Part shown: piece after piece, positions 2,003-3,190 of the stretch
How the letters are laid out: the number at the start of each line of letters is the position of its first letter
How positions within the stretch are numbered: the first letter of the stretch is position 1
Assembly: GCA_021413865.1 (NCBI GenBank)
Contig: JAIOPN010000034.1
Coordinates: forward strand, 1 to 64,000
Direction of reading: 5' to 3'
From: Planctomycetota bacterium
GTDB taxonomy: Bacteria; Planctomycetota; Phycisphaerae; Phycisphaerales; Phycisphaeraceae
Length of the DNA stretch: 64,000 nucleotides
Made by a program: the position numbers and the translations under genes
The notes under the pieces: generated by a model
Database searches by the model: none
Told to the model about the DNA's origin: nothing
What the model saw: the letters and a program-made list of their open reading frames with translations, nothing else

Positions 2003-3190
2003 ATGCTCGGCTGCCACGAGTTCTGCGGGTATTACGACTGGACGTTCAGACACATGCGGCAGCACCACGGCCAGCAGGCGGTCCGCGATCTGTGGGAGCA
2101 CGCGATCGGGCGTGATTCGCAGATGCACTACCTGCTGGCGGGCAAGGATCGCGGCCTGGCGGGGCTGTACGACTGCTGGGTGAAGACCGGCGAGGACGAG
2201 CACTGCGACTGGACCTTCACGCTCGACGAGGAGCGTAACGTCCTCCGCTGCGACATGCGCAAGTGCCCGAGCAAGGGCTTCCTCATCGAGAACGACCTGG
2301 CCAACGACGAGGATTACTGTGACCACTGCGCCGGATGGATCAAGCCGATGCTCGCGGAGCTCGGTCTGACCTTCGATCACGAGCACAACCACGCCGGCCA
2401 GTGCTGGTGGGAGATGCACCCCAAGGAAGGCCCGTGGCAGCCGCTCGATCTCGACATCGATATCCGCAAGAGCCCGCGCTGGAACGCAGGCTTTCTGGAG
2501 CGATGGAAGAACGGCCAACGCCTCCCGATCCTTGACGAGGGCGGCGCGAGCGACCCGACGCAGGTGCTGCACGACTGGTTCAAGGACGTGGAGTCGATAC
2601 TGGTGCTGGGGCGCGGCCCGAGTTCACGTGAAGCGGCCGCGCTTGTGAAGGAATACGACGCGGTAGTCGTGGCCGATCCGACGTATGCGATGAAGGATGT
2701 CTTCGCCGACGAGCCGCGGGCGGTGCTGCTGGGTGATCGCTCGCTGGTGCTGCCGCGGGTGGCCGAGCGGTTCAACGCCACGCCGGCCGCGAAGCGACCG
2801 CTGCTCATGCACATGTTCCTCCCGACGCTGCTGCGGGAGGAGGCGACGCCGTTCGTGTCGCTGGGGCTGCCGCGCCCGGTGCCGATCCTACCGCTGCTCA
2901 TCCGCGAGGGGTTGTACAAGCACAACCCCGGCGGGGTGTATCCGACGACCGGGACGTTTTTGGCCATGCTCGCCGTCGCGCTGGGTAAAAAGGTGTGCGT
3001 CGCGGGCATCGACCTCTACCGCCATCCGAGCGGGCAGGCGTATGCCCCGGGCGTGGAGCAGACCCACGACCAGTGGCTGAGCAAGCACAGCGAGGCGTGC
3101 GAGGTCGAGCACCTGCGCCGCCTGGCGAGCTATGCGGGCGACCGGGTGAAGTTTGTCGGCGTCGCGGCGGAAGTGGTTGCGCAATCGTAA
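2003..3190 (+). CDS. Two-domain protein: Cys-rich domain fused to a GT42-like sialyltransferase domain
   Basis: The ATG at 2003 is chosen because it follows the upstream stop by 2 bases; an open frame further 5' would overlap the previous gene. Residues 1-150 repeat the Cys-rich domain of the upstream gene. Residues 195-395 resemble bacterial GT42 sialyltransferases (Campylobacter Cst-I/Cst-II type). GRGPSS at 203-208 matches the GNGPSL CMP-sugar loop. TTGTFLAMLAVALG at 315-328 followed by AGIDLY at 334-339 matches the ITSG...SGIDFY block. H362 in HSEACEVEHL sits where Cst-II has HSKEYDIEAL. The domain may transfer a nonulosonate from a CMP donor, or may only share the fold. No CMP-sialate biosynthesis genes are nearby. 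Confidence 0.7.
   Translation: MLGCHEFCGYYDWTFRHMRQHHGQQAVRDLWEHAIGRDSQMHYLLAGKDRGLAGLYDCWVKTGEDEHCDWTFTLDEERNVLRCDMRKCPSKGFLIENDLANDEDYCDHCAGWIKPMLAELGLTFDHEHNHAGQCWWEMHPKEGPWQPLDLDIDIRKSPRWNAGFLERWKNGQRLPILDEGGASDPTQVLHDWFKDVESILVLGRGPSSREAAALVKEYDAVVVADPTYAMKDVFADEPRAVLLGDRSLVLPRVAERFNATPAAKRPLLMHMFLPTLLREEATPFVSLGLPRPVPILPLLIREGLYKHNPGGVYPTTGTFLAMLAVALGKKVCVAGIDLYRHPSGQAYAPGVEQTHDQWLSKHSEACEVEHLRRLASYAGDRVKFVGVAAEVVAQS

Follow-up and report, generated by a model that had tools for sequence, protein, structure and literature searches.

What does a sialyltransferase-like domain do when it is fused to a Cys-rich domain whose relative is encoded by the gene directly upstream? We analysed such a gene pair in the window, i.e. 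the whole stretch of 64,000 nucleotides, together with its relatives in other genomes. The fusion and the predicted fold of its second domain are real, and the fusion seems to be undescribed, as far as the literature was searchable. In articles on ATC hydrolases or on how these phyla break down sialic acids, we found the gene pair nowhere described.

Layout of the gene pair

Both genes lie on the forward strand. Gene A (positions 1566–2000) encodes a protein of 144 amino acids with the residues C86-P87, C104-E-H-C107 and C131. The gene of the fusion protein (B-fused, 2003–3190) follows after 2 bp, with GGGGAGGG ahead of its ATG at 2003 and a stop codon at 3188–3190. Its product of 395 amino acids has two domains. 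The N-domain (residues ~1–146, 2003–2440) is of the B-subunit type and contains the invariant residues C88-P89, C106-D-H-C109, H126-E-H-N-H130 and C134. A linker (residues ~147–190, 2441–2572) leads to the C-domain (residues ~191–395, 2573–3187), for which a GT42 sialyltransferase-like fold is predicted. The divergent neighbour of the pair, as read from its sequence, is presumably an M20-type peptidase.

The C-domain had been likened to Cst-II in the preliminary description on account of three sequence blocks, all of which we located. The GRGPSS loop (residues 203–208, 2609–2626) aligns to GNGPS of Cst-II, with R204 at the position of Asn9. The TTGTF...AGIDLY block (residues 315–339, 2945–3019) aligns to Cst-II 131–156 and consists of TTGTFLAMLAVALG at residues 315–328, then five residues, then AGIDLY at 334–339. 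The last block, HSEACEVEHL (residues 362–371, 3086–3115), begins with H362, the candidate equivalent of Cst-II His188. The three blocks recur in the same order in nine copies of the fusion, which is beyond chance. The likeness noted between the N-terminal Cys-rich region and the upstream protein also held: BLASTP aligned the two over 111 amino acids with 23% identity (E 6e-8), and the CP and C-x2-C pairs are in register. The match exceeds chance, and A and the N-domain of B-fused are paralogues.

Predicted folds of the subunits and the C-domain

The model of subunit A (pLDDT 93.1) matched Bet3 with a Z score of 9.1 over 131 of 144 residues, TPC6 with 9.0 and MopR with 7.3, and a V4R/TRAPP fold is predicted for this subunit. 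The N-domain of B-fused probably has the same fold; it matched TRAPP structures with a Z score of about 6 and MopR with a Foldseek probability of 1.00, at lower model confidence. A profile search with the Cys-rich domain had been proposed in the preliminary description. Subunit A gave a weak match to the Pfam family ATC_hydrolase (PF14196), with 21.4 bits, under the cut-off of 28.1, and this is its sole sequence match to the V4R group; the B subunits that we examined matched neither PF14196 nor any other Pfam family.

Conserved residues are C86, C104, H106, C107 and C131 in A, and C88, C106, H108, C109, H126, H128, H130 and C134 in B. The Cys set recalls the zinc sites found in bacterial and archaeal proteins of the V4R/TRAPP/H-NOX group (Bet3, TPC6, MopR, PoxR, YslB, BcsD), to which subunit A and, less surely, the N-domain are similar in fold. 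Archaeal and bacterial members of the V4R/TRAPP group bind zinc via Cys residues, the archaeal one dimerises via its first helices, and TRAPPC3/C6 form a eukaryotic heterodimer (PMC10933270, PMC10715001). The conserved Cys and His residues together with the fold point to a probable metal site, in line with the metal binding suggested earlier for the Cys-rich domain, and A and B probably form a heterodimer. The A/B proteins differ from the group in their operon partners, which are aldolases rather than phenol-response regulators or Rab machinery.

For the C-domain, we searched 177,635 PDB sequences. Used alone as query, the window protein matched nothing but Cst-II (E 2), and a full-length profile of nine members gave Cst-II at E 0.04 and Cst-I at E 0.41. 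The profile of the C-domain matched Cst-II more strongly (E 0.0077); GrGPs aligned to GNGPS and yPttgvf...aGidly to RITSGVY...SGIDFY, in this order. Whether the query was the window protein or one of its profiles, GT42 was the top family, at weak E-values (2, 0.04 and 0.0077). Two single homologues matched Cst-II at E 0.5 to 2.3; for one of them, the C-domain of the fused locus L045, an unrelated aldolase chain came first (E 0.24) and Cst-II second. Taken singly, each of these sequence matches to GT42 is weak. In Pfam, the window protein matched no family. The two families matched, weakly, by most of the nine members are both sialyltransferases: GT29 (best E 0.037, four of nine) and CST-I (PF06002; best E 0.095, two of nine, under the curated cut-off). 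Searches of the genomes with PF06002 gave no match; this proves little, because the control genomes were silent as well.

Structure comparison is in strong agreement and bears out the GT42-like fold that had been proposed. The AlphaFold2 model of the whole B-fused protein (pLDDT 70, pTM 0.60) is of low confidence in parts of the linker (163–183). Residues 187–393 of this model superposed on Cst-I with a Z score of 14.9 (199 residues, 4.0 A), and the C-domain matched Cst-II with a Z score of 13.7 and a Foldseek probability of 1.00. The next-best structures were a Pasteurella sialyltransferase (12.2), an MptE-like HPPK protein (11.5), GT29 (about 10) and Maf (9.9). We regard the predicted fold assignment as firm, with GT42 as the nearest branch. 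At the level of the region, H362 falls in the right place of the structural match.

The residues give a more divided picture. In Cst-II, His188 is the catalytic base, and Arg129, Asn51 and Tyr81 contact the acceptor (review, PMC4202792). All nine copies of the C-domain, a degenerate one among them, share H362, and D225 and D245 are invariant as well. In the HMMER alignment with Cst-II as reference, Asn9 is replaced by R204 and Arg129 by Y313, so that binding of CMP-sialate may be lost. The C-domain resembles Cst-I and Cst-II in predicted fold, in the order of the GxGPS, T[T/S]G..GIDxY and His blocks and in the candidate catalytic His, but differs in these two residues, in scoring under the CST-I Pfam cut-off, in being the C-terminal part of a fusion and in lying outside any sialoglycan locus. 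Since both residues are replaced and the Pfam cut-off is not reached, we did not file the domain as a GT42 member despite its GT42-like fold. The degenerate copy (L041:8024-9187, G011:C46) is the second fused copy in its genome. Its motifs are altered (GQGPG, PTAIVF, AGLDW) and its His is kept; by its looks it is a duplicate in the course of divergence or decay.

Distribution, ancestry and gene neighbourhoods

Of 61 near relatives, a set that includes the window's genome, five have a fusion, as do three more genomes among the 397 of the class. Outside the window, fused copies occur at eight loci in seven genomes of one class, two of them in the same genome (G011). Gene A lies directly upstream in every fused locus with upstream sequence; one locus (L042) begins at a contig end. 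The GT42-like domain was found solely fused to B. With the C-domain profile, no free-standing C-domain was detected among 397 genomes of the class and 392 of the phylum. An extra weak match to this profile was seen on contig C14 of G000 (E 0.0018, 44 residues). Verrucomicrobiota, Armatimonadota and Latescibacterota have B-type proteins that lack the C-domain, with more distant ones across the class and phylum, and most of them adjoin an A-type gene.

The preliminary description had explained the window pair by tandem duplication. In a tree built from 49 sequences, one branch with support of 100/100 separates A from B. As both clades co-occur in several phyla, we take A and B for an old two-subunit unit; the duplication is ancient rather than local, and the fusion came later. 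On the basis of the tree, we rejected a local tandem origin. The eight fused B proteins in the same tree form one clade (100/98), which indicates that the fusion arose once. A viral, phage or plasmid origin was also rejected: searches of viral contigs, plasmids and phages yielded no relative. In the loci L048 and L049, a DHDPS-family gene and a single A-type gene are followed by two B-type genes in tandem, and thus the B subunit was duplicated again there.

A gene for a DHDPS/NanA-family aldolase lies directly before A in five of the eight further fused loci (L039, L040, L043, L044, L045), in some of which it is preceded by GntR-type regulators. The DNA fetched for 12 more distant loci of the class or phylum includes a DHDPS-family gene in eight cases, two of which are from one genus. 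Read by eye, the class-I Lys and Tyr are in place in the neighbouring aldolases, which score under the NanA and DapA equivalog cut-offs; most neighbour annotations are likewise at family level, below curated equivalog cut-offs. A pair in Verrucomicrobia (L004) is surrounded by genes for BNR_2, GDSL and NANM (E 2.9e-31, above cut-off) proteins and an MFS transporter. The fused locus L042 has genes for NagA-like and NagB-like proteins, an FGGY kinase and a class-III aminotransferase. A similar set (NagA-like amidohydrolase, FGGY kinase, class-III aminotransferase) accompanies the A/B pair of L007, which belongs to a distant group; the two loci possibly share a sugar pathway. L007 also encodes an isomerase that weakly matches a sulfoquinovose isomerase model.

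With their aldolases, NanM, NagA-like and sialidase-like proteins and transporters, the neighbourhoods of the relatives look catabolic and unlike a surface-glycan locus. The aldolase, NANM, BNR_2 and NagA-like neighbours suggest a link of A/B to catabolism of ulosonates or sialic-acid-like sugars. They resemble the nan clusters of bacterial sialic acid catabolism in that a DHDPS/NanA-family aldolase, an epimerase of the NanM type, sialidase-like repeats, proteins similar to NagA and NagB, and GntR regulators are encoded near the relatives, but the aldolases fall below the NanA/DapA cut-offs, and no such gene lies beside the window pair. The window pair stands alone, and the best matches to the operon aldolase in its genome, at 24–26% identity, are not close relatives. 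Some DHDPS-family aldolases (L043:6413-7318, L039:9451-10365, L054:8661-9551) have GTMG followed by L, M or A instead of the usual GTTGE. Aldolases of this GTMG type occur several per genome, some of them beside BNR-repeat and FAD-oxidoreductase genes (L086, L088, L089).

Possible roles of the fusion protein

Our leading reading, to which we give a probability of roughly 0.45, is that the fusion is an accessory protein of ulosonate (sialic-acid-like) metabolism and that its C-domain handles a nonulosonate. A and B would form an old pair of V4R/TRAPP-fold subunits that probably binds metal and is probably a heterodimer. Next to class-I aldolases, this pair would take part in breaking down or remodelling keto-acid sugars of the sialic-acid kind. 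Subunit B gained the GT42-like sialyltransferase-fold domain in one bacterial class. The most likely ligand of this domain is a nonulosonate, activated (CMP-) or free, on which it would act by transfer or hydrolysis with the conserved His362 as general base, and the A/B module may recognise or process the matching small molecule. The reading is weakened by the isolated position of the window pair in a genome without a close aldolase relative, by the replacement of Asn9 and Arg129, by the pLDDT of 70 for the whole protein, by neighbour annotations that are mostly at family level and by the near-universal presence of NeuB in relatives (see below). If it is true, the fusion is a new domain architecture for the sialyltransferase fold group, and attention is drawn to a widespread two-subunit family, as yet unnamed, whose genes adjoin those of aldolases and sialidase-like proteins in several phyla. 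Functional work on the A/B pair could then bring to light a step still missing from sialic-acid or ulosonate metabolism in the environment.

Other readings assign the C-domain a different activity, or none. The fusion protein would be a bifunctional catabolic enzyme if the sialyltransferase fold had been turned to salvage, e.g. freeing or moving a nonulosonate from its nucleotide-activated form, and tied to a V4R/TRAPP-fold heterodimer that hands the nonulosonate to an aldolase; such use of a GT42 fold outside glycan synthesis seems distinctly improbable to us. Highly improbable, in our estimate, is a divergent member of the DUF115/MptE-thiamin-pyrophosphokinase side of the fold group that transfers pyrophosphate or nucleotides. 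The Z scores of the HPPK/MptE-like (11.5) and Maf (9.9) structures agree with it, and the invariant D225 and D245 are reminiscent of the two Asp motifs of thiamin pyrophosphokinase. However, these scores lie 2 to 5 below those of Cst-I and Cst-II, DUF115 is absent from the Pfam matches of the nine members, and homology to the group's own Maf/DUF115 proteins was undetectable by profile comparison (Prob 0.1, not significant). The fold might instead be catalytically retired or re-purposed, binding a ligand and regulating the A/B unit, as the donor-side change from N9 to R, the loss of some motif residues in the second G011 copy and the nature of V4R/TRAPP folds as small-molecule-binding modules (PMC10933270) would suggest. 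We consider this unlikely, given that all copies other than L041 retain His362 and T315 as well as the blocks T[T/S]G and GIDLY, as would be expected of an active site.

A true nonulosonate glycosyltransferase, the view of the preliminary description, would move the sugar from a CMP-activated donor to a glycan at the surface or on a protein while the A/B module recruits the acceptor or a partner; this is conceivable, and we find it doubtful. GT42 is the closest fold, and His362 and the central blocks are kept, but the acceptor-binding Arg129 of Cst-II (PMC4202792) is replaced, and no glycan-biosynthesis gene was recognised beside the fused copies, where aldolase and regulator genes recur instead. 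The genome does contain genes for CMP-nonulosonate synthesis, as the preliminary description had anticipated: NeuA-, NeuB- and NeuC-like genes are all present. NeuB was also found in 56 of 61 relatives, with or without a fusion, and for this reason the synthesis genes, though present, are uninformative and do not favour sialyl transfer by the fusion. In the window genome, genes for a Maf/DUF115-like protein, a long nucleotidyltransferase-like frame, and NeuA-like and NeuC-like proteins follow in a row, as identified by eye (L078 2885-8759, G000:C3), and NeuB lies on another contig. This row looks like a flagellin nonulosonate locus, and similar gene rows are present at L082 and L083.
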